Below are positions 3,109 to 56,267 of a stretch of DNA of 64,000 nt, piece after piece (the stretch's first letter is position 1; each line of letters starts with the position of its first letter). Origin of the DNA: Hyphomicrobiales bacterium (GTDB lineage Bacteria > Pseudomonadota > Alphaproteobacteria > Rhizobiales > Beijerinckiaceae); NCBI GenBank assembly GCA_028869185.1, contig JAGWTA010000004.1:111544-175543 (forward strand), written 5' to 3'. The notes under the pieces are model-generated. The model worked only from the letters and a program-made list of their open reading frames with translations. It was not told where the DNA came from and did no database searches. Made by a program: the position numbers and the translations under genes.

Positions 3109-4518
3109 TCAGCAGGAATAGTACATGTCGAATTCCACCGGGTGCGGCGTCATTTCGAAGCGCATCACTTCCTGCATCTTCAGGTCGATCCAGCTTTCGA
3201 TGAAGTCGTCGGTGAACACGCCGCCGGCCTTCAGGAAGTTGCGATCCTTGTCGAGGTTCGCCAGCGCTTCGCGCAGCGAGCCGCAAACGGTGGGGATCTT
3301 CTTGAGTTCCTTCGGCGGCAGATCGTACAGGTCCTTGTCCATCGCCGGGCCCGGATCGATCTTGTTGGCGATGCCGTCGAGACCGGCCATGAGCATGGCG
3401 GCGAAGGCGAGATACGGGTTCGCCGTCGGATCGGGGAAGCGAACCTCGACGCGCTTGGCCTTCGGGTTGGACGTATAGGGGATGCGGCAGGACGCCGAAC
3501 GGTTGCGCGCCGAATAGGCGAGCAGCACGGGCGCTTCATAGCCCGGGACGAGACGCTTGTAGGAGTTCGTCGACGGGTTGGTGAAGGCGTTCAGCGCCTT
3601 GGCGTGCTTGATGATGCCGCCGATGTACCACAGGCACTCTTGGCTGAGGTCGGCGTATTTGTTGCCCGCAAACACCGGCTTGCCAGCCTTCCAGATCGAC
3701 TGGTGGACATGCATGCCCGAACCGTTGTCGCCGAAGATGGGCTTGGGCATGAACGTAGCCGTCTTGCCGTAGCTCTGCGCGACCTGATGGATGCAATATT
3801 TGTAGATCTGCATCTGGTCGGCGATGGCGACGAGCGTGTCGAACTTCATGCCGAGTTCGTGCTGCGCGGAAGCAACTTCGTGATGGTGCTTCTCGACCTG
3901 CACGCCCATCTGCTGCATGGCGCCGAGCATTTCGGAGCGCATGTCCTGCGCCGAATCCATCGGCGGGACGGGGAAGTAGCCGCCCTTGGTGCGGATGCGG
4001 TGGCCAAGGTTGCCGCCCTCATACGCGGTATCCATGTTCGAGGGCAGTTCGATCGAGTCGAGCACGAAGCCCGTGTTGTACGGGTCCGCCTTGAAGCGCA
4101 CGTCGTCGAACACGAAGAATTCGGCTTCCGGACCGAAATAGGCGGTGTCGCCGACGCCCTGCGTCTTCATATGCGCCATCGCCTTCTTGGCGATGCCGCG
4201 CGGGTCGCGCGAATAGGGCTCGCCGGTCGAGGGCTCGAGAACGTCGCAAACGATCGACATCGTCGGCGCGGCGAAGAACGGGTCCATCGTCGCCGAGGTC
4301 GGATCGGGCATCAGCGTCATGTCGGATTCGTTGATCGCCTTCCAGCCGGCGATCGACGAGCCGTCGAACATCGTGCCTTCCGAGAACATGTCTTCGTCGA
4401 CCAGCGACTGGTCGAAGGTCACATGCTGCCACTTGCCGCGCGGGTCGGTGAAGCGCAGATCGACATATTTTACGTCGTTGTCCTTGATCGCCTTGAGGAC
4501 TTCCTTGGCGGTCTTCAT
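3109..4518 (-). CDS. glnA: Glutamine synthetase, type I
   Basis: 469-residue GSI enzyme making glutamine from glutamate, ammonia and ATP; a cytoplasmic dodecamer in this family. The start at 4518 ([20 protein letters not shown]) gives the normal family length and has a GAGG-type ribosome binding site; longer upstream readings have no homology. The C-terminal KDLYDLPP segment carries the Tyr (about residue 398) that GlnE adenylylates in the GSI-beta class, so covalent control is expected. It lies 43 bp downstream of glnB in the same orientation, forming the usual alphaproteobacterial glnB-glnA operon, and ends in a strong terminator. Confidence 0.97.
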
Positions 4519-4561
4519 GTTTTGCCTCGCTTGTGCTGGTGGCTTGTTGAAGGTGTTGGAA

Positions 4562-4957
<396 letters not shown>

Positions 4958-5102
4958 TTAGCACCCGGCGCAGGAGTGCGCCAAGGCGCTACAAGGTCGC
5001 AAACGCCTAGTTTCGCGTCAATAATCACAGGAAGGCGCCACAAAAATAGGCGACAGGGGCGGGCCGGCAGGCTGCACCCACGCGCAGCCTGCCGTTCATG
5101 CG

Positions 5103-5474
5103 TTATTCCACCGGCGTCAGAATGTCCGTCAGGACGGGCGATGTATGTTCGACCATCACCACGGCGCCGACGCCCGGGCCCAGCTCCTGCAGCGAAGCGA
5201 CGGCCCCGTTTGCGAAGCGGACGGCATCTTTGTAGGCGCCGCCGTCGCGTCTTGCGAAGACGACCTCCGTCTCCGGCGCGACGCCGAATTTGGCGCACAG
5301 CGAAGGCGGCAGGTGGTCGAGCGCAAGGCGCATGTCGTATTGCATGCAAATTGCGCAGCTTTTGTCGCCCGGCGCTGCGAAGCCGATGCTGCCGCTGGAA
5401 AAGCGCGTCGTTTCGTAACGCTCGTCGGCGCGCGCGGGCCGCGATGCGTAGGTTTCAAGCGAATAGTCGCACAT
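5103..5474 (-). CDS. Conserved hypothetical protein, MCDYSL type
   Basis: 123-residue soluble protein beginning MCDYSLETYASRPA, an N-terminus I associate with a small conserved family in Hyphomicrobiales. It contains a C-x-x-C pair (SCAICMQ, near residue 40) that could bind metal or be redox-active. The rest has alternating hydrophobic strands, consistent with a small beta-rich fold. A GGAGAGAC ribosome binding site precedes the ATG at 5474. Function unknown. Confidence 0.7.
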   Translation of the reverse strand: MCDYSLETYASRPARADERYETTRFSSGSIGFAAPGDKSCAICMQYDMRLALDHLPPSLCAKFGVAPETEVVFARRDGGAYKDAVRFANGAVASLQELGPGVGAVVMVEHTSPVLTDILTPVE

Positions 5475-27190: not shown

Positions 27191-27648
27191 TGGTCCGACA
27201 GAAGCGCGACAACCAAACACTCGATCTTCTCGCATGGGAGCCGCCGCAGGTGCGCGTCGGCTATGAGGCCCATGAGACGCGCGGCGGATCGCTCGACGCC
27301 ACGATCGCCCGCGCGATCGCGCTGGCGCTCAACCGCTGCGAACGCAAGCGCGAGCAGATCGCCGAAGACATGTCGGCCGAACTCGGACGGCGCGTCACGA
27401 AGGACATGCTCGATGCATGGGCATCGCTGGCGCGGACGAGCAACCGCATTCCGCTCGATGCTTTCGCCGCGCTTGTGCGCGCGAGCGGGCAGCACGAGCT
27501 GCTCGGATTGATCCCGGAGATGTTCGGCTTTGCGGTCGTTCCCGCCCGCTACGCCGAAATCATCGAACTGCACCTGATCGAGGACAAGAAGGCCGAACTG
27601 GAACGCCGCGCCGCCGCGCTGGCCGCGCGCGTGAAGGGAGGCCGGTGA
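27190..27648 (+). CDS. Mu-like early protein preceding transposase
   Basis: 152 residues, helical, with a central segment (REQIAEDMSAELGRRVTKDM) that looks like an HTH, so DNA binding is plausible. Proteins of this kind sit just upstream of the A transposase in Mu-like phages of alphaproteobacteria. It is coupled to transposase by TGATG overlap. Precise role unknown. Confidence 0.65.
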   Translation: MVRQKRDNQTLDLLAWEPPQVRVGYEAHETRGGSLDATIARAIALALNRCERKREQIAEDMSAELGRRVTKDMLDAWASLARTSNRIPLDAFAALVRASGQHELLGLIPEMFGFAVVPARYAEIIELHLIEDKKAELERRAAALAARVKGGR

Positions 27649-29771
27649 TGAAACGCTGGTTTTCCGCGCGTGATCTCGCGAATTTGAAACTTCCGGGCTT
27701 GCCGACAGCGATCGAGAACCTGTCGCGTGTCATCACAAAAACGCGTGCGATGTCACCCGGATTAATCCGTCCTATCATCGCCAGCGGCGGCGGCTATGAA
27801 ATCGCCTTTGACGCGCTCCCCAAGGCCGCGCGCGCCGAGCTGGAAAAGCGCGACGCGCTTGCGCGCCTGCCAGCGCCCACGTCGCGTCAGACGCCAGCCG
27901 TCGCCGAGACACATCTGACGCAGCGCCAGCGCGACATCATGAGCGCCCGCCGAGCCGTCTGTCTGGAAATCGACCGCCTTGCCATTGTCTGCGGTTGCGG
28001 CGTTGCTGGCGCTGTCAAGGCGCTGCTGGCGGACCATCGCGCAGGCCTGCTCGCTCCTGAAGTCGCAAGCGCTGTGCGCACTGCGAACGAAAAGGGGCGG
28101 TCCCTCTCCGAACGGTCGCTCTACCGCTGGCTGAAGGCGCGCGAAGACGGGGGAGCGGCGATGGCGCCCCGCCGATCGCGTCAGATTGCCGACGCGCCGG
28201 ATTGGCTGGACGTATTCCTCTCATTTTACGCCCGGCCGCAAAAGCCGGACGTTTCACAGGCCTATGCTGCGTGGCTGAAAAGCCTGCCGGCCGGAACGCC
28301 GGCGCCGTCCTACGCTGCCGTTCGCCGCGCGCTCTCCAAGCTTTCGCATCTCGAACGCGCGCACGGTCGCGAAGGAAAACTGGCGCTGCGGGCGCGGCAG
28401 GCCTATGTCGTTCGCGACTTCGCCGATCTGGCTCCGACGACGATCTATGTCGCTGATGGCACGACGTTCGACGCCGAAGTCGAACATCCGATCCACGGGC
28501 GTCCATTCAAGCCAGAGATCACGATCATCACCGATGTGGCGACACGCCGCGCTGTCGGCTGGTCAGCCGGGCTCGCCGAAAGTCAGCTCACGGTTTCAGA
28601 TGCGCTGGCGCGCGCGGCCGAGCAAGGCATTCCCGCGCTGTTCTACACCGATCGCGGCTCTGGCTATCGCAACTTCGCAAACGACGATCAGCTCGTCGGC
28701 CTGTTCCGCCGGCTCGGGACAACGCCGATGCGCGCGTTGCCTTACAATTCGCAGGCAAAAGGCGTCATCGAGAACTTCCAGCGGCGCTGGATCGCTGTCG
28801 CCAAGCAGTTCCCGACCTACACCTACAAGGACATGGACAAGGAGGCGAAACAGATCGCCTTCAAGGAAACCCGTCGGGAACTCGCCTTTATCGGTCGTTC
28901 GCGGCTGTTGCCGACATGGGCCGAATTTATTGCGGCTATCGAGACAGCCGTCACCGATTACAACGACAAGCCGCACCGGTCTTTGCCCCATTACCGCGAT
29001 CCGCTCACCGGATCGAAACGGCGCATGACGCCGAACGAATTGTGGGCGCAAAAAGTCGCCGCCGGCGCCGAACTCATCATTCCCGGCGAGGACGAGCGCG
29101 CCGATCTTTTCCGTCCCTACGAGGTGCGCCGCGTCCGCCGCTGCATGATCGAACTCGGCACCAACAGCTATTTCTCAACCCAGCTCGATCCCTTCCACGG
29201 ACAGGACGTCATGGTCGGCTACGACGTGCGCGACGCGGCGCAGGTCTGGATACGCCGGATCGACATGCACCAGGGCGAGCGCCAGCCGGGAGCGCTTGTT
29301 TGCATCGCTCAATTCGAGGGCAACAAGACGCGCTACATTCCGGTCTCTGCCGAGCAGGCCGCGCTGGAGAAGCGCGCCGCCGGCCAGCGCCGCCGCCTTG
29401 CCGACAAGCTCGACCGCGTCGAGGCGCAGCTGCGCCCGGCGCAAATTCTGACGCTGCAACCTGTAGCGCAAACCCTTCTCGCCGCGTCCTCCCCCCTTGT
29501 CGACGGCGAGATCGCGGACGGCCCGGAGCTGCTTGAGCAGGTGTCGCGTGAAAGCGCGCCGGAGCCGTCCGCACCTGAGGGCGGGCGTCCGAACTTTTCG
29601 GATGATCTGGAATTCGCGCGTTGGCTCATCGACCACCCGGCCGATGCGACAGCGACGGATCGTGAGCTTGTTGTCGAGTTGCTCACGGGGGCCGCGTCAC
29701 AAAAACGGCTCCAGCTGCACGGTGTTGATCTCGATCGTCTGCGAACGATTGCGATCTCTGAAGCCGCGTAG
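27648..29771 (+). CDS. Mu A-like DDE transposase
   Basis: 707 residues. The N-terminal winged-helix DNA-binding start (KRWFSARDLANLKLPGLP) matches the Mu A class. The catalytic rve/DDE core carries Asp270 (VADGTTFD), Asp335 (FYTDRGSGYRN) and Glu375 (KGVIENFQRRW). A C-terminal beta-barrel and tail follow for B interaction. It integrates and replicates the phage by transposition. The ATG at 27648 gives a start in keeping with Mu A; a longer upstream frame is an overlap with the previous gene. Confidence 0.95.
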   Translation: MKRWFSARDLANLKLPGLPTAIENLSRVITKTRAMSPGLIRPIIASGGGYEIAFDALPKAARAELEKRDALARLPAPTSRQTPAVAETHLTQRQRDIMSARRAVCLEIDRLAIVCGCGVAGAVKALLADHRAGLLAPEVASAVRTANEKGRSLSERSLYRWLKAREDGGAAMAPRRSRQIADAPDWLDVFLSFYARPQKPDVSQAYAAWLKSLPAGTPAPSYAAVRRALSKLSHLERAHGREGKLALRARQAYVVRDFADLAPTTIYVADGTTFDAEVEHPIHGRPFKPEITIITDVATRRAVGWSAGLAESQLTVSDALARAAEQGIPALFYTDRGSGYRNFANDDQLVGLFRRLGTTPMRALPYNSQAKGVIENFQRRWIAVAKQFPTYTYKDMDKEAKQIAFKETRRELAFIGRSRLLPTWAEFIAAIETAVTDYNDKPHRSLPHYRDPLTGSKRRMTPNELWAQKVAAGAELIIPGEDERADLFRPYEVRRVRRCMIELGTNSYFSTQLDPFHGQDVMVGYDVRDAAQVWIRRIDMHQGERQPGALVCIAQFEGNKTRYIPVSAEQAALEKRAAGQRRRLADKLDRVEAQLRPAQILTLQPVAQTLLAASSPLVDGEIADGPELLEQVSRESAPEPSAPEGGRPNFSDDLEFARWLIDHPADATATDRELVVELLTGAASQKRLQLHGVDLDRLRTIAISEAA

Positions 29772-41187: not shown

Positions 41188-42824
41188 GCAAACTCTCACC
41201 GACCGCGTTTCGCGATCAGGTCGCAGCCTTCACCGACACGCTGCGCCGGCGCATCGACGCGGAAGTTTCGGGTTTTCCGACCGATCCCAGGGCGCGCGCG
41301 GTGCGCGTGGCGAAGGTCAAAGACCCGGCGACGGGGTTTCGGTTCTTTTGCGAGACCTATTTCCCGCACTATCTGACGAAAGCGCCAAACCGCCTGCATC
41401 TGCATCTCTTCGCCGAGTTGCCCGCTATCGTCGAGCGCAAGCCCGGCGGGCGCGGGGCGCGCGAGATCAAGATCGCGCCGCGTGGCGCTGCAAAGTCGAC
41501 CATTGTCACACAGCTTTTCACGCTCTGGACAGCGATCCTGAAACTGCGGCGCTATGCGATCGTCGGCATGGACGTTTACGACCAGGCGGCGATCATGCTG
41601 GCGGCGATCAAGGTCGAGCTGGAGGAGAACCCGCGTCTCGCCCAGGACTTTCCCGACGCCGTCGGACAGGGCCGTCTCTGGCGCGAAGGCGAGATCGTCT
41701 TGCGCAACGGCGTGAAGATCGAGGCCGTCGGCTCGCGTCAGAAAGTGCGCGGGCGCCGCCATGGCCCATATCGTCCTGACCTGTTCATTCTCGACGATAT
41801 CGAAAACGACGAGAACGTGCGCTCGCCTGACTATCGCGACAAGCTCGAAGCATGGGTGCTGAAAGCTGTGCTGAAGTGCGGCCCGGCCGACGGATCGATG
41901 GACCTGATCATCGTCGGCACCTTGCTCATGCGCGACGCGGTGCTCGTGCGGCTCGCAAAGCGGCCGGGCTGGAATGTCGAAAAATTCGCGTCGATCGTCG
42001 AATGGCCAGACCGTATGGACCTTTGGGACGAATGGGAGGAATACCACCGCAACGCCAGCGAGGCGGCGTCGGATGCCTTCTATGCCGAGCATAAAGTCGA
42101 GATGGACGCCGGCGCCGTCGTCAACTGGCCCGAAGAACAGCCACTGCTGATGCTCATGAAGGAGCGCGCCGAAAGTCCGGCGGCGTTCAAATCGGAGCGT
42201 CAGAATGATCCGGTCTCGGAAACCGCGCCCTTCCAGAAATTCACTTACTGGGTGCGCGAAGAACCTGATCTCGTCAGGTTCGGCGCCATCGATCCATCGC
42301 TCGGCAAAAAATCGAAGCGCAACGATCCTTCCGCCATTATCGTCGGCGGCTATAATCGCCAGACCGGCGTCCTCGATATTCTGAAGGCCTCGATCCGCCG
42401 GCGGCTTCCGGACGTGATCTGCGAAGACACGATTGCGCTCCAGCGCGAATTCAACTGCGCCTTGTGGTTTTGCGAGGCCGTCCAGTTTCAGGAATTTCTC
42501 CGCACGGAAATCATGCGCCGCGCCGCCGTGCAGGGCGTTGCTCTTTCGGCTTTGCCTGTCACGCCCATCGTCGACAAGCGGTTGCGCATCGAGCGCCTGC
42601 AGCCGCCGGTCGCCTCCGGCCTCATCCGCTTCTGGCCGCATCAAAAACAGCTGATCGACCAGCTCGAACAGTTTCCCGATGGCGAACACGACGACGGTCC
42701 TGATTGTCTGGAAATGCTCTGGTCGGGCGCGCTGCAATATGCAGGCGTGGCGTTAGAGCCGGATGCGGTGCGCGGCGCGAATGTCGGCGTCTCCCGCGAC
42801 TTTTTCGGAGGCTATAGGCTGTGA
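41184..42824 (+). CDS. Large terminase subunit (Mu gp28-like)
   Basis: 546 residues. The ATPase half has a Walker A-like APRGAAKST (about 98) and Walker B LFILDDIE (about 201). The C-terminal nuclease half begins FGAIDPSLGKKSKRNDPSAI (about 365). It packages DNA into the prohead. Start ATG 41184 overlaps the preceding stop. Confidence 0.93.
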   Translation: MSKLSPTAFRDQVAAFTDTLRRRIDAEVSGFPTDPRARAVRVAKVKDPATGFRFFCETYFPHYLTKAPNRLHLHLFAELPAIVERKPGGRGAREIKIAPRGAAKSTIVTQLFTLWTAILKLRRYAIVGMDVYDQAAIMLAAIKVELEENPRLAQDFPDAVGQGRLWREGEIVLRNGVKIEAVGSRQKVRGRRHGPYRPDLFILDDIENDENVRSPDYRDKLEAWVLKAVLKCGPADGSMDLIIVGTLLMRDAVLVRLAKRPGWNVEKFASIVEWPDRMDLWDEWEEYHRNASEAASDAFYAEHKVEMDAGAVVNWPEEQPLLMLMKERAESPAAFKSERQNDPVSETAPFQKFTYWVREEPDLVRFGAIDPSLGKKSKRNDPSAIIVGGYNRQTGVLDILKASIRRRLPDVICEDTIALQREFNCALWFCEAVQFQEFLRTEIMRRAAVQGVALSALPVTPIVDKRLRIERLQPPVASGLIRFWPHQKQLIDQLEQFPDGEHDDGPDCLEMLWSGALQYAGVALEPDAVRGANVGVSRDFFGGYRL

Positions 42825-44392
42825 GCGACGACGCAAAAAACCTGCCGGCACTTTCGGATGAAACGCCGCCGTCGACGCCGCCGGCCGGCCTGATCGCCAA
42901 TCCGCGCAACGACATCACCATCCCGCTCTACAGCAAGGTGCTGCGCCCGCAGGATGAGACGCTGTTGCAACGGGGCGGCGGCAAGGGCATCGCACTCTAT
43001 CGCGAAGTGCTGAAGGATGGGCGCGCCTACACTGTGCTGCAGAAACGCAAGCGCAAGCTCGTGGCGCGCGAATGGATTATCGAGCCCGCCAGCCAGGCGC
43101 GCGTCGACCGCAAGGCCGCCAAGGTCTGCGAGGACCAGCTGCGCGCGCTCAACCTCGACGCCGTCACACTTGGCTTGCAGGATGCGACGCTGATGGGGTT
43201 TTCGATCGGCGAAGTCGAATGGGCGCGCGACGGCGCGGCGATCGCTGCCCGGCGCGTCGTCAATCACGACCAGCGGCGCTTCCTGTTTGGTCCCGATGGC
43301 GAACCGCGACTTCTGACGTGGGACGCGCTCGCCGAAGGCATCGAGCTGCCGCAGCGCAAGTTCATCGTGCATCGCTTCGAGGAGCTGTCGAGCGATCCCT
43401 ACGGCTGGGGTCTCGGGCGCATCCTGTTCTGGCATGTTCTGTTCAAACGCGAGGGCGTCGCCTTCTGGATGAAGGCTTTGGAGCGGTTCGCAACGCCTAT
43501 TCCCGTCGGCAAATATCCCATCGGCTCGATGCCGCAACAGCAACAGGCGCTGCTCGACGCCCTGTCGGGCGCCATTGTGTCGGGCGCCATCATCGCGCCG
43601 GCCGGGACCGATATCGCATTTGCGCAAGCCGCCGTTTCCGGCACGCTGACGCATGAGGACTGGTGCCGCTACTGGGACGAGCAGACGGCGGAAACGGTGT
43701 TGGGTCAGACGCTGTCCACCAATATCGGGCAAACCGGGTCGAAGGCGGCGGCCGACACGCACCAAAAGACGGAAGACGAGCTGATCGATGGCGACAGCGA
43801 TCTCGTCGGCGCAACGCTGCGCAACACGCTGCTCGACTGGATTTGCGCCTACAACGTGCCCGACGGCGCGCCGCCGATCATCAAATGGAAGCGACCGACC
43901 AATGTGAAGGAGGCGGAGGAAGCCGCCGGCCTCGCCGCCGATCGCCGCGCCAAAGACCTCGCCAATATCCAGCAGATGAAAACCATGGGCTGGGCTCCGG
44001 GCGAGGAGCAGGAACAGGTCGCCGAGATCATGGGCTACGAGGTCGTCGCTTGCGAACCGACGCCGTTGCCGCAGGCGCCACAAACGCCACAGGCCAATCA
44101 GGACAATTTCAATCAGCAGACGGCATTCGCGGAGGCGCGCGACGATGTCGCTGCCGATGCGCAAACGCTGGAGGACGCGGGACAGCCCGTGCTCGACGGG
44201 TGGGTCGGAAAGGTGCGTGCGGCGATCGACGATTTGCTGTCGACCGGTGGCCAGCTTTCCGACCTGCCGGCGCGGATGCTCCAGCTTTATCCCGGCCTCG
44301 GCACGAAGAAACTGGCGAAACTGATCGGCGACGCGACGGCCAATGCGGAGCTGCGCGGTCGCGCCGACGTGAACGACGAGGCGGGCAAATGA
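42821..44392 (+). CDS. Portal protein, DUF935 (Mu gp29-like)
   Basis: 523 residues with the DUF935 portal layout: N-terminal IANPRNDITIPLYSKVLRPQDE, the crown region with SIGEVEW, and the RRFLFGPDGEPRLLT block. Forms the dodecameric vertex through which DNA enters. Overlaps TerL and the F-like gene by 4 bp each. Confidence 0.92.
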   Translation: MSDDAKNLPALSDETPPSTPPAGLIANPRNDITIPLYSKVLRPQDETLLQRGGGKGIALYREVLKDGRAYTVLQKRKRKLVAREWIIEPASQARVDRKAAKVCEDQLRALNLDAVTLGLQDATLMGFSIGEVEWARDGAAIAARRVVNHDQRRFLFGPDGEPRLLTWDALAEGIELPQRKFIVHRFEELSSDPYGWGLGRILFWHVLFKREGVAFWMKALERFATPIPVGKYPIGSMPQQQQALLDALSGAIVSGAIIAPAGTDIAFAQAAVSGTLTHEDWCRYWDEQTAETVLGQTLSTNIGQTGSKAAADTHQKTEDELIDGDSDLVGATLRNTLLDWICAYNVPDGAPPIIKWKRPTNVKEAEEAAGLAADRRAKDLANIQQMKTMGWAPGEEQEQVAEIMGYEVVACEPTPLPQAPQTPQANQDNFNQQTAFAEARDDVAADAQTLEDAGQPVLDGWVGKVRAAIDDLLSTGGQLSDLPARMLQLYPGLGTKKLAKLIGDATANAELRGRADVNDEAGK

Positions 44393-50768: not shown

Positions 50769-51070
50769 TGAAATACATCTATCGCGGCCCGCTTCATGCG
50801 GCGGAGATCATGCCGGTGGCAAAGGCGGAGACAGGCGACACGAAGGCGGAGACAGGCGACACGAAGCCGCTGAAGCCGCTGTTCTCCGGAATACTCGCCG
50901 ATGGCGTCGCGCTCGATCTGCCGGCCGATCATCCGCAGGTCGCCAACTGGCTGGCGCGCGGCTGGCTGAAAATCGACGACACGAAACCGCAACCGGCGGC
51001 GCAACAGGGTGCGGCGCCATCGCAACCCAACCCGCAACCGACGCCGGCGCCGGCCGCGCCCACCGCCTAA
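50768..51070 (+). CDS. Small protein before sheath (Mu gp38-like), with internal repeat
   Basis: 100 residues. Contains an exact AETGDTK duplication from a 21-bp tandem repeat (50822-50842, 50843-50863). C-terminus is Pro/Gln/Ala-rich. Function unknown; positional match to Mu gp38. Confidence 0.65.
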   Translation: MKYIYRGPLHAAEIMPVAKAETGDTKAETGDTKPLKPLFSGILADGVALDLPADHPQVANWLARGWLKIDDTKPQPAAQQGAAPSQPNPQPTPAPAAPTA

Positions 51071-51089
51071 CCGCAAAGGAGACGCCCGC

Positions 51090-52388
51090 ATGGCTGGCGA
51101 GAATTATCATCACGGTCCTGAAATCGTCGAAAGCTTCGTCGGCTCGCAATCCGTCGTGGATGTGAAGGCGGCGACGTGCTTCCTCGAAGGCACGGCGCCG
51201 ATCCAGAACCTCTACGATACGCCCGAGAAGCGCGCGGCCTTCATCAATCAGCCGATCATCATCCGCACGCCGGCCGATGCGGTTGCGGCATTCGGTCCGG
51301 CCTCGGTCGCCGCAGGCTATTCGATCCCCGAAGCGCTTCAGGCCTTCTTCAACAAGGACCAGGCGGGCAAGGGCGTCGGCACAATCGTCGTGAACAACGT
51401 CTTCGATCCTGACCGGCACATAAATGCACAGGGCAAGCCCGATCCGACGCAGGTGACGGCGGCCGATCTCGTCGGCGATTACGACGCCGCTGGCCGCCCG
51501 ACCGGCATGAACGTCGCTTATTCGTGCTTCAACAAGTTCGGATTTTTTCCCCGCCGTATCATCGCGCCGCGCTTCACGGGGTTGCTCGGTTTGCGTCAGA
51601 AAATGCTGACCGTCGCCAACGACGTGAAGGGGCATGCGATCTACGATCTGCCGCCGGGCATGAAGAAGCAGGACGCGCTGACCGCGCGCGGCGTCGGCGG
51701 CGATTTCAACGTGGCGTCGGAGCGCGCTGTGCTCTGCTATCCGCAGGTTCTCGCGCTCGATCCCGTCACCGGTGGTCAGTCGCTCCAGCCCTACAGCCAG
51801 CATTTTGCCGGCGTCTGGAACACGGCGGTCTCGCAGATCGGCCCGAACCGCTCGCCCTCGAACCTCTCCATGCCGGATGTCTCCGGCACGGAAACCGACA
51901 TTTTCTTCATGCCGGGTTCCTACGCCTCCGACACGGACATGCTGAACGAAGTCGGCATTGCGACGACGATGACCTACTACGGCGCCGGCATCAACACGTG
52001 GGGCGCATCGAGCGCGGCCTGGCCGACGGTCAAGAACCAGACAGCGTGGCTGCATGGACGCGCGGTCTGCGACGTGATCGAGGATGCGATCCTGTTCTAT
52101 GCCATGCCCTATATCGACCAGATGGCCTCGCCGTCGATCGTCGACATGGTCGAGGAGCGCGTGCGCGCCTATCTGCATACGAAGGAGCCGGGCGGCGACA
52201 GCTGGCTTTACGGCTCGAATTTCACATTCGACCGCACGCGCAACACGGCCGAGCAGATCGCGAACGAGGGCCGCGTCTATTACAGCTACTCCTTCGCGAT
52301 CATGGGCATCATGCACCGGATCACGATCGAAGCCTCCATCGATCTCACCTTCGTCTCGACGGCCCTCGGGCTCGTCGCGGCTGCTTAA
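51090..52388 (+). CDS. Contractile tail sheath protein
   Basis: 432 residues. The domain order is sheath-like: N-terminal GPEIVESFVGSQSVVDVKAA, a variable insert, and a C-terminal core with VCDVIEDAILFY and SFAIMGIMHRITIEASIDL. Forms the contractile outer tube. RBS AAAGGAGA. Confidence 0.93.
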   Translation: MAGENYHHGPEIVESFVGSQSVVDVKAATCFLEGTAPIQNLYDTPEKRAAFINQPIIIRTPADAVAAFGPASVAAGYSIPEALQAFFNKDQAGKGVGTIVVNNVFDPDRHINAQGKPDPTQVTAADLVGDYDAAGRPTGMNVAYSCFNKFGFFPRRIIAPRFTGLLGLRQKMLTVANDVKGHAIYDLPPGMKKQDALTARGVGGDFNVASERAVLCYPQVLALDPVTGGQSLQPYSQHFAGVWNTAVSQIGPNRSPSNLSMPDVSGTETDIFFMPGSYASDTDMLNEVGIATTMTYYGAGINTWGASSAAWPTVKNQTAWLHGRAVCDVIEDAILFYAMPYIDQMASPSIVDMVEERVRAYLHTKEPGGDSWLYGSNFTFDRTRNTAEQIANEGRVYYSYSFAIMGIMHRITIEASIDLTFVSTALGLVAAA

Positions 52389-52402
52389 AGGAGCGCGCCG
52401 CC

Positions 52403-52918
52403 ATGTCCGTCAAAATCGGCCAATGCACCAACGCCGACGTTTATCTCAACGGCGACAACCTCGTCGGTCGCTTCAAGGATTTCCAGCTGCCCGATCTCGA
52501 ATACAAGGAGGTCACGCACGAGACGCTGGGTCAGATCGCAGTCCTGTCGATGCCTGGGCGGCCGCTGCAGGCGCTGAAGGGCAAGGGCACGATCGATTTC
52601 CTTGATCGCGATCTCTATCCGCAGCTGCTCAATCCGACAGTGACGCTGCCGTTTGCGCTGCATTCCTATGTCGATGTGTTCAACACCGGCGGCGTCGATG
52701 TCGCCAACTCATACCGCATCGTCACCAACGTCACGATGTCCATCCGCAAGGTCGGCGGCAAACCGTTCAAGCTCGGCGATGCTTTCGAGGGCGAATTCGA
52801 ATATGTCGCGCAGCGGTTCACGCAAGGCGTTCCCGGCGCCAAGACGCCGATCGTCGAGGTCGACGTGATCAATCAGGTTCATCGCATCCTCGGCCAGGAC
52901 GTCTGGCCGAAATTCTGA
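52403..52918 (+). CDS. Tail tube protein
   Basis: 171 residues. The FII-type tube pattern (LNGDNLVGRFKDFQLPDLEY, PLQALKGKGTIDFLDRDLYP) fits Mu gpM/P2 FII. Its TGA (52916-52918) is followed directly by the tRNA gene. Strong RBS AAAGGAG. Confidence 0.93.
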   Translation: MSVKIGQCTNADVYLNGDNLVGRFKDFQLPDLEYKEVTHETLGQIAVLSMPGRPLQALKGKGTIDFLDRDLYPQLLNPTVTLPFALHSYVDVFNTGGVDVANSYRIVTNVTMSIRKVGGKPFKLGDAFEGEFEYVAQRFTQGVPGAKTPIVEVDVINQVHRILGQDVWPKF

Positions 52919-52992
52919 CGCGGGGTAGAGCAGTCCGGCAGCTCGTCAGGCTCATAACCTGAAGGTCGCGGGTTCAAATCCCGCCCCCGCTT
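52919..52992 (+). tRNA. Initiator-type tRNA-fMet(CAT), phage-borne
   Basis: Complete cloverleaf. Acceptor 52919-52925/52985-52991 has C1 opposite T72 (mismatch); the D stem GAGC/GCTC includes A11-T24. Anticodon CAT is at 52953-52955 in a TCAGG/CCTGA stem with loop CTCATAA. T stem GCGGG/CCCGC has loop TTCAAAT. C1 mismatch and A11-T24 are initiator signatures. CCA is not encoded (CCG follows). It begins on the base after the tail-tube stop. Confidence 0.9.
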
Positions 52993-53107
52993 CCGCTCGG
53001 GCGCGTTCAGCGAAAAGACGCTGCCTGTTTGCCGGTCGCAAGGCCGGTCCCGTCGCGGGGGATTTGCATTCCCCGCGACACCTTCCCCCTTTCAGGAGCA
53101 AATCGTC

Positions 53108-53524
53108 ATGGACACAGCAACGCAAACGCAGGATCAAACGGCAACCGATATCGCCGCCAACCTTCAGGCCGCCGGCGCAAAAGCCGGAACCGTCAAGGAG
53201 CGCCTCGCCCAATACAAGGCGGACAGCAGCGGCACGGATACGTTTACGCTCGATGAAACCGGCGTCGTCGTCACACTTCCCAAATTCAAGCCTTATTCGG
53301 CGTGGGTGATGGCGCAGCGTCTTGGCGGCAAGGATCAGGAGCGTGTGCAGGAATATTACATCATCGCGCTCTGCCGTTTCGACGACGAGAAGCTGACGGC
53401 GGACGATTACCGCGATCTCATCCCCGCGCCTGACCATTTGCAGATTGTCGGCGCTGTCTTCAGCGGGGCAAAGGACAAGGCCAAAGCCGCCGCCGCGCCG
53501 GCCGGAGACGCCGAGGGAAAGTAA
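53108..53524 (+). CDS. Tail assembly chaperone (Mu gp41-like, G product)
   Basis: 138 residues, small and acidic/helical, between tube and tape measure. Ends with GAG GGA AAG TAA; the heptamer GGGAAAG at 53515-53521 permits -1 slippage into the next frame. Assists tape-measure folding and tail length setting. Confidence 0.85.
   Translation: MDTATQTQDQTATDIAANLQAAGAKAGTVKERLAQYKADSSGTDTFTLDETGVVVTLPKFKPYSAWVMAQRLGGKDQERVQEYYIIALCRFDDEKLTADDYRDLIPAPDHLQIVGAVFSGAKDKAKAAAAPAGDAEGK
53515..53521 (+). promoter_or_regulatory. -1 ribosomal frameshift slippery site GGGAAAG
   Basis: X XXY YYZ heptamer in the proper phase (G GGA AAG) directly before the TAA stop. After slippage the next codons are GTA ATG CCT, joining the 53524-53682 frame. 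Identical to the lambda G-T slippery sequence. Confidence 0.8.
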
Positions 53525-53682
53525 TGCCTGGCCCGCAAGACCATGTGCATATGATCCGGCGTGGCTGGCGCCACGCCGATCTCATGCGCATGGAACTTGA
53601 CGAGGCCGCATTCTGGCTCGGTCAGCAGATCGAATACGACAAGGCCGTCGCGCAAGCGATCAAGGACGCGCAGCGCTCATGA
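53524..53682 (+). CDS. T-part of the tail chaperone (52 aa, frameshift extension)
   Basis: 52 codons in the -1 frame to the gene before. An ATG exists at 53524, but the slippery site suggests it is mainly made as a fused GT-type protein of about 191 residues. Sequence: HMIRRGWRHADLMRMELDEA, then AFWLGQQIEYDKAV. Overlaps the tape measure start by 4 bp. Confidence 0.75.
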   Translation: MPGPQDHVHMIRRGWRHADLMRMELDEAAFWLGQQIEYDKAVAQAIKDAQRS

Positions 53683-56267
53683 CCGACATGAATTTCAAAC
53701 TCGTTCTTGAGCTGGTCGACAAGGCCTCGAGCGCGCTCCAGAAGGTCACGGGCGCACAGGAAAAGCTCAACGCCAACACGAAGGCCGCGAACGCCGCCAA
53801 TCAGAAGACGGCGGTGCAGATCGCGCATGAGATGCGCAAGCAGGCCGAGGCGACACAGAAGGCTGCTGATGCACAAAAAGCGCTGGAGAGCGCGGCCAAG
53901 GCGGCGGGTTCTGCAAGCGCTGATGCGGCCTCCGACGCGGCCCGCGCGACGGAGAAGGCCACGGGCGCATTGCAACGGCTGCGCAGCGCCAGCGCAGCAG
54001 CCGGTCATGCGCTTTCGTCGGCTTTTCACAAGGCGGCGCAGGCTGCAACGTCATCGGGCCACATCATCGCGCGCGCCGGCTCTGTCGCCGGCAAGGGGTT
54101 CGCCCAGGGCGTCAGCCACGCGATCAAGCAGGAAATGCCGAATATCCTGCGCCATATCTGGGGCGGAATGACGGGCGGGCCAATGGCGCTGATGTCGAGC
54201 CCGCGCGGGCAGGCCTTCCGCGCACGGGCTCGACAGGCGTTGTCGACGGGCGTGACGCAGGGCTCGGCGCTGGCGCGCGCGGCCGGCGCCATGGCCTATT
54301 CGAACGTGCAGGGCGCGATCCATCTGGACGAACAATTGCGGCCCGACATGGGCGTAGAGGGCGCCCGGCGCATGCGCGCGGCGGCGGATCGCTATCTTCT
54401 GGCGTCGCCGTTCAGCCGCGACGATATCCGGTCGACATTGCCGGCCGCCGCGCGGATGCAGCTCATGCCGGGCTCGCGCGAATGGAATGCGCTGATGGAC
54501 GCGGCGGCGGCGACGAAACAGACGCCGGCGCAGGCGATCGAAGCATGGGAGGCGGCGAAGAAGGGCGACTATTCCGGCATGGAAGCCTTCGGCATCAAGG
54601 CTAAGACCGACGACAACGATAAGGCGCGCTCGCTCATGTATAACGCCAATGGCGCGGCACAGAATGTCGCGGTCAATGGCGACGCCCAGGGTGCGATCAT
54701 CGACGCGCTGGAAGCGCGGTTCAAGGGCGCAGGCGATCGCTCCAGCATGACGATCGACGGCGCAATCATGCGCGGCAAGAATGCATGGGACGCATTCATC
54801 GGCCGGGTGATGGACAGCGGGCCGTATGATTTTGTGCTTGGCAAGCTGAACGAGATTTTCGATGAGCTGAAAAAGGCGACCGGCGCAACGGAGGGCGGGC
54901 TCGCGGAAAATATCGGGAAGCAACTGACTGAAGTTTTGAAGGGTGGCTATGATCTCGCTCGCGATATCACTGTTGCGCTCAAAGCTTTAAAGGACGTGCT
55001 GGAACCGGTCGCACAAGCAGTTGGTGGCTGGAAAATCGCTTTTGAAGGATTGATTGCGCTCCGCGTCCTAGGGTGGATGCAGGCCATTTTGGCGCCACTG
55101 TCATTTCTAACGACAGCCTTCACAATCAACACAGCCGCGATTAGCGCGGCGACCGCCGCTGCGTGGCGATATGCCGCCGCGCTCGCTGCAAACCCAGTGA
55201 CATGGATCGTTGCAGGCCTTCTCGCTCTCGCAGCGGCCGTCTATCTCGTCTACAAAAACTGGGACACGATCGGGCCGGCGATCGCACGCGCGTGGGAGGC
55301 GATCAAGGCCGCTGTCAGCGCCGGAATTTCCGCCGTCGGCGCCATGATTTCGGCCGCATGGGACGGCGTCACAGGCGCGATCTCGGCCGCGTGGACCGCG
55401 ATCAAGACCGCAGTCTCGACCGGAATTTCCGCCGTCGTCGACGTCATCGCAGGCTTTGGCGGCAAAGCCCTGGCCGCCATCAAGGCGGCGTTTGAGCCTG
55501 TCGTCGGCTGGTTCGATAGCGCCGTCGGTAAAATCAAAGACATCTGGAAGGGTGTTTCCGATCTGGCGGGCAAGGCCGCCTCCTATATCGGTATTGGCTC
55601 GGATGATCCAAACGCGAAACTGATTTCTGACGCGGGGCGCGCCTCGGAGGCCACCGCGTTGCTGAACGACCTGCAAACGAAGATGGCCGAGGTGCGCAAT
55701 GCCGTCGCCAATTTCGACGTCGCCGGGCCGCTGACCGCAGCGATCGGCGCGGCGCGCGTGTCGATCGCCAGCATCTCCTTCTACAACGAAGGCGTTGCAA
55801 TGATGAAGACGCTTGCGGACGGTATTGCCGCCGGCGCAGCTCATGCGGTTTCCGCCGTGGCGCGCGTGACGCAGCAGATGCGCGATTATCTGCCGCATTC
55901 GCCTGCCAAAGTCGGTCCGCTCTCGGATCTCGACGAAGTTCGGTTTTCCGAGACGCTCGCGACAGCGATCCGGCCGGAGCCGGCGATCGCCGCCGTCCGC
56001 GCGGTGGCGGCCGGCATGGCTGGCGCCATGTCGCCGCGCATCGGTGTATTGGCGGCGCAGGCCGAAGGCGGCGGCGGCCTTGTCGCTGGCGGCGCAGGCG
56101 CGCCGGCCGGGGGCGCGACGCATCTCAATTTTGCGCCCGTCATCCACGCGGCTGGCGGCGACGCTCGTTCGATCATCGAGCACCTGCGACCGCTCGCCTA
56201 CGAACTGGCGCAGATGGTGGCGCGCGAGCAGCGTCAGAGCGCACGGCTCAATTTTCAGGAGGCGTAA
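53679..56267 (+). CDS. Tail tape measure protein
   Basis: 862 residues, the longest tail gene. Begins with a long Ala/Lys coiled coil (about 15-120); hydrophobic helices at about 445-490 and 495-525 form the membrane-active part; the C-terminus includes QQMRDYLPHSPAKVGPLSDL, a common tape-measure segment. Length sets the tail length. Confidence 0.92.
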   Translation: MTDMNFKLVLELVDKASSALQKVTGAQEKLNANTKAANAANQKTAVQIAHEMRKQAEATQKAADAQKALESAAKAAGSASADAASDAARATEKATGALQRLRSASAAAGHALSSAFHKAAQAATSSGHIIARAGSVAGKGFAQGVSHAIKQEMPNILRHIWGGMTGGPMALMSSPRGQAFRARARQALSTGVTQGSALARAAGAMAYSNVQGAIHLDEQLRPDMGVEGARRMRAAADRYLLASPFSRDDIRSTLPAAARMQLMPGSREWNALMDAAAATKQTPAQAIEAWEAAKKGDYSGMEAFGIKAKTDDNDKARSLMYNANGAAQNVAVNGDAQGAIIDALEARFKGAGDRSSMTIDGAIMRGKNAWDAFIGRVMDSGPYDFVLGKLNEIFDELKKATGATEGGLAENIGKQLTEVLKGGYDLARDITVALKALKDVLEPVAQAVGGWKIAFEGLIALRVLGWMQAILAPLSFLTTAFTINTAAISAATAAAWRYAAALAANPVTWIVAGLLALAAAVYLVYKNWDTIGPAIARAWEAIKAAVSAGISAVGAMISAAWDGVTGAISAAWTAIKTAVSTGISAVVDVIAGFGGKALAAIKAAFEPVVGWFDSAVGKIKDIWKGVSDLAGKAASYIGIGSDDPNAKLISDAGRASEATALLNDLQTKMAEVRNAVANFDVAGPLTAAIGAARVSIASISFYNEGVAMMKTLADGIAAGAAHAVSAVARVTQQMRDYLPHSPAKVGPLSDLDEVRFSETLATAIRPEPAIAAVRAVAAGMAGAMSPRIGVLAAQAEGGGGLVAGGAGAPAGGATHLNFAPVIHAAGGDARSIIEHLRPLAYELAQMVAREQRQSARLNFQEA

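Follow-up and report, generated by a model that had tools for sequence, protein, structure and literature searches.

An initiator-type tRNA gene abutting the tail-tube stop codon in a Mu-like prophage of a Hyphomicrobiales bacterium

The stretch of DNA analysed here, called the window in the following, is 64,000 nucleotides long and comes from a Hyphomicrobiales bacterium. It contains a prophage with a tRNA gene inside its tail module, and the relevant features are the following:

27417–29771, + strand: MuA-type transposase (Mu transposase C-terminal domain, PF09299, E 1.4e-14)
42821–44392, + strand: Mu-type portal protein (Portal_Mu, PF06074, E 3.9e-86)
51009–52388, + strand: tail sheath gene (phrog_23, E 1.6e-51)
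52403–52918, + strand: tail tube gene (PF04985, precomputed), with its stop codon TGA (52916–52918) abutting base 1 of the tRNA
52919–52995, + strand: initiator-type tRNA(fMet,CAT) gene (ARAGORN, Rfam, fold and sequence reading)
53052–53079, + strand: GC-rich hairpin of 12 bp between the tRNA and the next ORF
53108–53524, + strand: next ORF, 138 aa, a tail assembly chaperone from its position only
53679–56267, + strand: tape measure gene (phrog_28, E 2.2e-21)

With its MuA-type transposase and Mu-type portal protein the prophage is Mu-like, and the contractile-tail set of sheath, tube and tape measure completes the setting that had been proposed in an earlier reading of the sequence alone (below, the sequence-only reading). 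A phage virion morphogenesis protein was also matched in the same prophage, and the ORF behind the transposase, where a MuB-type ATPase would be expected, gives an AAA ATPase match (AAA_22), with TniB scoring 22.2 bits, just below its threshold of 22.4. The tube family is labelled 'head closure' in PHROG. The gene after the tRNA had been called a tail assembly chaperone, and its position indeed fits; the name has, however, no family support, as PHROG and Pfam searches with this ORF ended without a family match.

The tRNA gene fills a gap of 189 nt, the sole large one in the tail module, where the remaining junctions are at most 74 nt, given the gene choices used. It starts directly after the tube stop codon and on the strand of the late operon, as had been described earlier. 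No match to a sigma-70-type promoter was found within 52300–53700, and the one terminator-like match, at 53048–53060, is at chance level (0.8 expected). The segment 53045–53085, on the other side of the tRNA from the tube gene, has a calculated stability of −24.3 kcal/mol (z −4.38), which none of 200 shuffled sequences equals, and the hairpin within it is a candidate processing or stability element. The tube gene's final codons (52890–52910 of the window) also form a hairpin, of 8 bp and ending 8 nt before the tRNA; it could shield a tube mRNA with its 3' end at the stop codon.

The sequence-only reading had proposed that the tRNA gene be scored with Aragorn and a covariance model, and both recover it. 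ARAGORN calls a tRNA-Met with anticodon cat at 52919–52994 on the + strand, the sole tRNA in the 64-kb window, while Rfam RF00005 matches 52919–52992 with 62.2 bits (E 4.3e-11; gathering score 29), and the cloverleaf is also the minimum-energy RNA fold of the gene. A11–U24 in the D stem is a feature of bacterial initiator tRNAs, and it is present here as A11–T24 in the stem GAGC/GCTC. The missing Watson–Crick pair at 1:72, a further trait of these tRNAs (PMC8576571), is seen as C1 against T72. The cloverleaf, the CAT anticodon, the unpaired C1 and T72 and the A11–T24 pair are thus all as first described. The body of the tRNA up to position 73 covers 52919–52992, with C1 at 52919, C71 at 52990, T72 at 52991 and T73 at 52992. 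The last three bases of the span first given (52993–52995) read CCG where CCA is expected, such that A76 is not encoded. An encoded CCA is dispensable where a CCA-adding enzyme acts.

For the comparison with chromosomal initiators, 41 genomes were searched, namely that of the window and those of 40 relatives, and 31 of them, own included, gave matches. From relatives in the same order, 29 loci (L005–L033) were fetched, 24 of which are readable full-length initiators; the other five are three fragments or partly N and two tRNA-Pro matches. The base-by-base comparison covers 23 initiators, and L019, which the comparison filter missed, was read separately. The anticodon stem of the phage tRNA is AGG/CCT, and the form with three G–C pairs known from E. 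coli is absent both here and in these 24 chromosomal initiators. The sequence-only reading had taken this as a departure from the norm. The same stem is, however, found in 24 of the 24 readable chromosomal initiators, and it is therefore the norm of the lineage rather than an oddity. In fact, the whole anticodon arm of the phage tRNA matches base for base the arm of all 24, with a same-genus genome among them, and judged by such comparisons the phage tRNA is a host-type initiator.

Between 7 and 11 of 77 positions differ from the 23 chromosomal initiators, 7 being the value for the nearest. The differences always include G9A, a D-loop T changed to C, one T-stem pair, A72T and the final position of CCA. 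The T-stem pair is altered on both sides with pairing retained, and A72T leaves 1:72 unpaired. The chromosomal initiators of the order encode A72 and CCA where the phage copy encodes T72 and CCG. T73 was found in only one of the 24 chromosomal initiators (L022:1504–1577, same family, behind LSU and 5S rRNA); an initiator behind LSU and 5S is seen at three of the four chromosomal loci checked. Within the assembly, CCA is encoded in all 37 distinct complete cellular tRNAs (the inventory has 38 rows, with one Pro gene twice, and one further tRNA is cut by a contig end). The phage tRNA is therefore alone in needing A76 to be added, if it is matured.

The host's own initiator gene was not found in this assembly, and neither were 16S and the Ile-GAT, Ala-TGC, Asn, Cys and Trp tRNAs. 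The absence of the initiator was set aside as a meaningful result, as 16S and other tRNAs are missing too, three of the four chromosomal loci checked have the initiator behind LSU and 5S, and stretches of rRNA operons can be masked, with 5000 N in the rRNA operon of a closed relative. The absence thus says nothing about the copy number of the host initiator.

Relatives of the phage were searched for through the tail. The tube protein alone as query gave no relatives in viral or genome contigs. An alignment as query gave 16 viral loci and none in genome contigs, 10 loci besides the own one among 397 genomes of the order, and 2, again besides the own one, among 397 genomes of the family; the sheath and narrower alignments returned mostly the same contigs again. 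Four viral contigs have a tube that is at least 50% identical (L034, L035, L036 and L037). In L034, with a tube 71% identical, a tRNA-Met is located 8 nt behind the tube stop codon. It derives from fMet, as its local score against the host fMet is 210, a value reached by none of 500 shuffled sequences. This copy is degenerate: it scores 41.9 bits, its anticodon loop has T37 and C38, its D stem has G11–C24, and its acceptor stem is irregular, with one base missing in the Rfam alignment. The function may therefore be decaying in this lineage. No tRNA is present at the tube in L035, L036 and L037, and none adjoins the tube in the more distant loci, of which L039 has just 69 bases behind the tube. 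A decayed tRNA suspected by eye in L036 was rejected, since shuffled sequences did as well against the host fMet in 232 of 500 cases, and against the phage tRNA in 94 of 500.

When the window and L034 are compared, 57 of 77 positions of the tRNA are identical, against 41 of 66 fourfold-degenerate sites of the tube gene, and the rest of the spacer is unalignable (69 of 300 shuffles are as good). As the tRNAs are alike and the spacer is not, the sequences point to either of two histories: the tRNA element has been retained longer than the sequence around it, or an initiator gene was inserted at this place on two occasions.

Initiator tRNAs of this kind were also considered outside the close relatives, with two motif scans of viral contigs in which matches were selected by the sequence of the anticodon arm. 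Among the matches listed, 181 of the 194 CAT tRNAs with a readable T loop have the initiator anticodon arm; 53 of these are lone, with no second tRNA in the fetched stretch, and at least 1 kb from its ends (48 distinct), 67 are nearer an end and 61 stand beside other tRNAs. Predicted viral contigs may contain chromosomal DNA, which may account for some of the 53. Among the matches listed, 1:72 is unpaired in 46 of the 53 lone initiators, with nine base combinations, and in 41 of the 48 distinct ones, where it is never G–C; the corresponding numbers are 57 of 67 for those nearer an end and 34 of 61 for those beside other tRNAs, the latter pairing 1:72 more often (27/61). The avoidance of pairing is borderline, with 7 paired where permutation gives 11.2 on average (P 0.056, for the 48 distinct ones among the matches listed). 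With the same scope of matches listed, the lone initiators have A73 in 51 of 53 cases, T73 in one, and an encoded CCA in 34.

The neighbours were scanned at 27 loci, comprising 26 of the 48 distinct ones and L118, which had been dropped earlier by the T-loop filter; the loci were chosen for long neighbouring ORFs, and one or a few ORFs were scanned at each. Among the matches listed, a same-strand head or packaging gene is located within about 380 nt at 9 of these 27 loci (L087, L113, L118, L125, L149, L154, L238, L255 and L257; for L154 the gap was measured from its terminase ORF). The gene beside the tRNA is, for example, a crAss-like capsid gene in L118 and a Mu F-type head gene in L149. As the choice of loci was not random, 9 of 27 is to be read as recurrence and not as a frequency. 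The other 18 have integrases (L290, L293), Ro60-type proteins (L170, L332) or antiterminators (L140, L301), and the rest of them have other functions, families of unknown function or no match, apart from L249, where a terminase is found on the opposite strand and which was consequently not counted as a structural adjacency.

Some of these neighbourhoods deserve a comment in their own right. The Ro60-type RNA-binding genes, L170:3015–4847 and L332:4858–6639 (−), lie 71 and 108 nt from lone initiator tRNAs; their assignment is based on phrog_850, and for L332 also on Pfam TROVE and vWA_Ro60. The antiterminator matches are L301:1270–1890 (−), which is weak and Q-like, and L140:1654–2346 (−), and lone initiator tRNAs come after both. 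In L149, a portal (3531–5411) with a C-terminal match to the anti-CBASS protein Acb1 (PF23474, E 5e-29) is located upstream of the Mu F-like gene and the initiator tRNA.

Initiator matches were also obtained in 296 phage records, including 128 Mycobacterium and 38 Caulobacter phages, and eight named records were opened. In four of the eight, a virion or packaging gene stands beside the fMet match: the fMet gene is behind the large terminase in Elanor and QDWS359 (both Mesyanzhinovviridae) and in PaMx74 (Pamexvirus), and behind the major tail protein in Nocardia phage NTR1. These phages are unrelated to the present one, and the likeness is the initiator tRNA behind a virion or packaging gene. 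Only QDWS359 of the four has the tRNA-fMet annotated, followed there by a tRNA-Ile. The initiator tRNAs are unannotated in the public records of the other three, L061 (Elanor), L197 (PaMx74) and L063 (NTR1). As to the remaining records, in Pan5 the fMet gene is in a recombination region with a tRNA-Cys, in CN1A it is beside a tRNA-Trp, and CRP-212 gives merely a 37-base match. Pseudomonas phage Y6 (L196, OQ572408.1) was dropped as a phage case: tRNA-Leu, tRNA-Met, nusA and infB stand there in a row, and with the fMet gene beside nusA and infB the stretch looks bacterial rather than phage.

In mitochondrial polycistronic transcripts, a tRNA adjoins the stop codon and its excision ends the mRNA. 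The present junction is alike in that a same-strand tRNA abuts a stop codon, which is here read from the sequence alone. Among phages, single tRNA-fMet genes are described in Sinorhizobium prophages, namely in 4 of the 15 phiLM21-like prophages that have one tRNA (PMC12429752) and in prophage NV1.1.1 (PMC10460002). The likeness consists of one initiator tRNA in a temperate phage of probably the same order, whereas the phiLM21-like prophages have tyrosine integrases and tRNA integration sites (PMC12429752). The first of these sources also treats tRNA-dependent lysogeny, in which integration disrupts a host tRNA gene and the tRNA of the phage takes its place (PMC12429752). Such lysogeny calls for a site-specific integrase and insertion into the matching tRNA gene; the present prophage carries a MuA-type transposase. 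tRNA(fMet) genes within tRNA arrays are described for phage T5 and cyanophages (PMC4810235) and for an Erwinia jumbo phage (PMC7760394). These are phage-borne initiator tRNAs too, whereas the present one is single, belongs to a Mu-like structural operon and abuts a stop codon. The E. coli metY-rimP-nusA-infB operon (PMC6511841) is similar in that an initiator tRNA is co-transcribed with protein genes and followed by a processing region, but metY is chromosomal and heads its operon, while here the tRNA is internal and behind a structural gene. Among the top-ranked matches in the PMC open-licence literature, none describes a phage structural operon with an initiator tRNA gene in it. What is known are thus phage initiator tRNAs in arrays or single ones in Sinorhizobium prophages, and what appears to be new is such a gene within a structural operon and immediately behind a stop codon.

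The usual explanations for phage tRNAs are codon usage and escape from anticodon nucleases. Initiator tRNA is not known to read internal codons, and with an anticodon arm equal to the chromosomal one, a lone initiator fits neither of these explanations.

The reading towards which we lean, if not strongly, is that the host-type initiator tRNA is cut from the late transcript, as seems likely, and enlarges the fMet-tRNA pool during the synthesis of the virion proteins. Of the two roles suggested in the sequence-only reading, topping up initiator tRNA and cutting the late mRNA, the former would thus be the better fit. From its position and sequence, the tRNA would be transcribed along with the late operon. 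RNase P would then cut between the A of the tube stop codon and C1, 3' nucleases would trim the trailer to ...UCC, and A76 would be supplied by the CCA-adding enzyme. After charging by MetRS and formylation by the formyltransferase, the mature tRNA would be used for initiation and add to the fMet-tRNA pool as the virion proteins are made. Because the stop codon and the tRNA abut, the RNase P cut, if made, would fall exactly behind the tube stop. Cleavage of the late mRNA by tRNA processing would thus be a geometric consequence if RNase P acts, with the side effect that tube mRNAs would end at their stop codon and be split from the downstream tail mRNA, as in mitochondrial punctuation.

The intact initiator signature and the covariance score argue for this supply of initiator tRNA, as do the compensated T-stem pair, the unchanged anticodon arm and the still unpaired 1:72. 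The 189-nt gap, the tRNA in L034 with its similarity beyond that of the spacer, the T73 of the chromosomal L022, the mostly unpaired 1:72 of the lone viral initiators among the matches listed and the head and packaging neighbours elsewhere also favour it. What weighs most against a fully functional initiator is that the L034 copy is degenerate and that the 3' end is altered here; the unencoded A76, the rare T73, the presence of a tRNA in only L034 of the four close relatives and the borderline avoidance of pairing at 1:72 likewise speak against it.

The main rival is that the tRNA shape is kept mainly as a cut site for RNase P and 3' nucleases, which would divide the tube mRNA from the downstream tail mRNA and set the stoichiometry of the two, with the tRNA itself as a by-product. 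RNase P reads the acceptor stem, the T arm and the CC at positions 74–75. The copies in the window and in L034 both retain the features it reads and have lost different initiator features, namely the 3' end here and the anticodon loop and D stem in L034. This, together with the zero nucleotides between stop codon and tRNA and the strong hairpin after the tRNA, speaks for such a role. There is also the case of the E. coli metY-nusA-infB operon, where RNase III cleavage frees the initiator tRNA and starts the decay of the downstream mRNA (PMC6511841). However, any tRNA would do for this purpose, yet an initiator was chosen and its anticodon arm is identical to the chromosomal one, and the relatives L035–L037 manage without a tRNA. 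We consider the rival unlikely, keeping in mind that supply and cutting are not mutually exclusive.

Next comes the option that a host initiator gene was acquired by chance and is a functionless, decaying passenger. The missing A76, the rare T73, the degenerate copy in L034 and the other relatives without a tRNA speak for it. On the other hand, the T-stem change is compensated and the cloverleaf is intact, similarity of the tRNA is retained where the remaining spacer no longer aligns, and comparable initiator genes stand repeatedly next to structural genes in unrelated phages; a mere passenger is improbable.

Finally, an extra initiator that refills or bypasses the pool attacked by toxins cutting or blocking tRNA(fMet), for example of the VapC or AtaT types, is very unlikely. 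It has a precedent in the VapC of Bosea, an alphaproteobacterium with a single initiator gene, which cuts tRNA(fMet) (PMC8522696), and a counter-defence role of phage tRNAs is proposed in PMC10264068, but the same paper has phages generally avoiding tRNA-fMet where tRNA-fMet is the target. Moreover, the anticodon arm, which is the VapC cut site, is the same as in the chromosomal initiators; the phage tRNA would therefore be just as VapC-sensitive, and counter-defence by an altered arm is unlikely. No match to the PIN domain (PF01850) was found in this assembly either, while the same search was positive in 10 of 14 control genomes.

Returning to the supply of initiator tRNA, the cases in other phages allow a wider version, which we put forward tentatively and with some doubt: unrelated phages may have repeatedly placed a single initiator tRNA in their virion-assembly operons, such that the late mRNA would co-make its own starter tRNA, and in the Mu-like case this tRNA would also end the tube mRNA at its stop codon. 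For a Mu-like phage there may be a second reason to alter the initiator pool, by analogy with Mu itself: the transpositional replication of Mu in vitro depends on IF2, the factor to which initiator tRNA binds (PMC3334882).

If the tRNA works, what phages would increase is the capacity of the ribosome itself to initiate, coupled to transcription of the late genes, and the junction of zero nucleotides between stop codon and tRNA would parallel, in a bacterial virus, the tRNA punctuation of mitochondria. If the wider version is true as well, it would amount to a general feed-forward switch on translation initiation.
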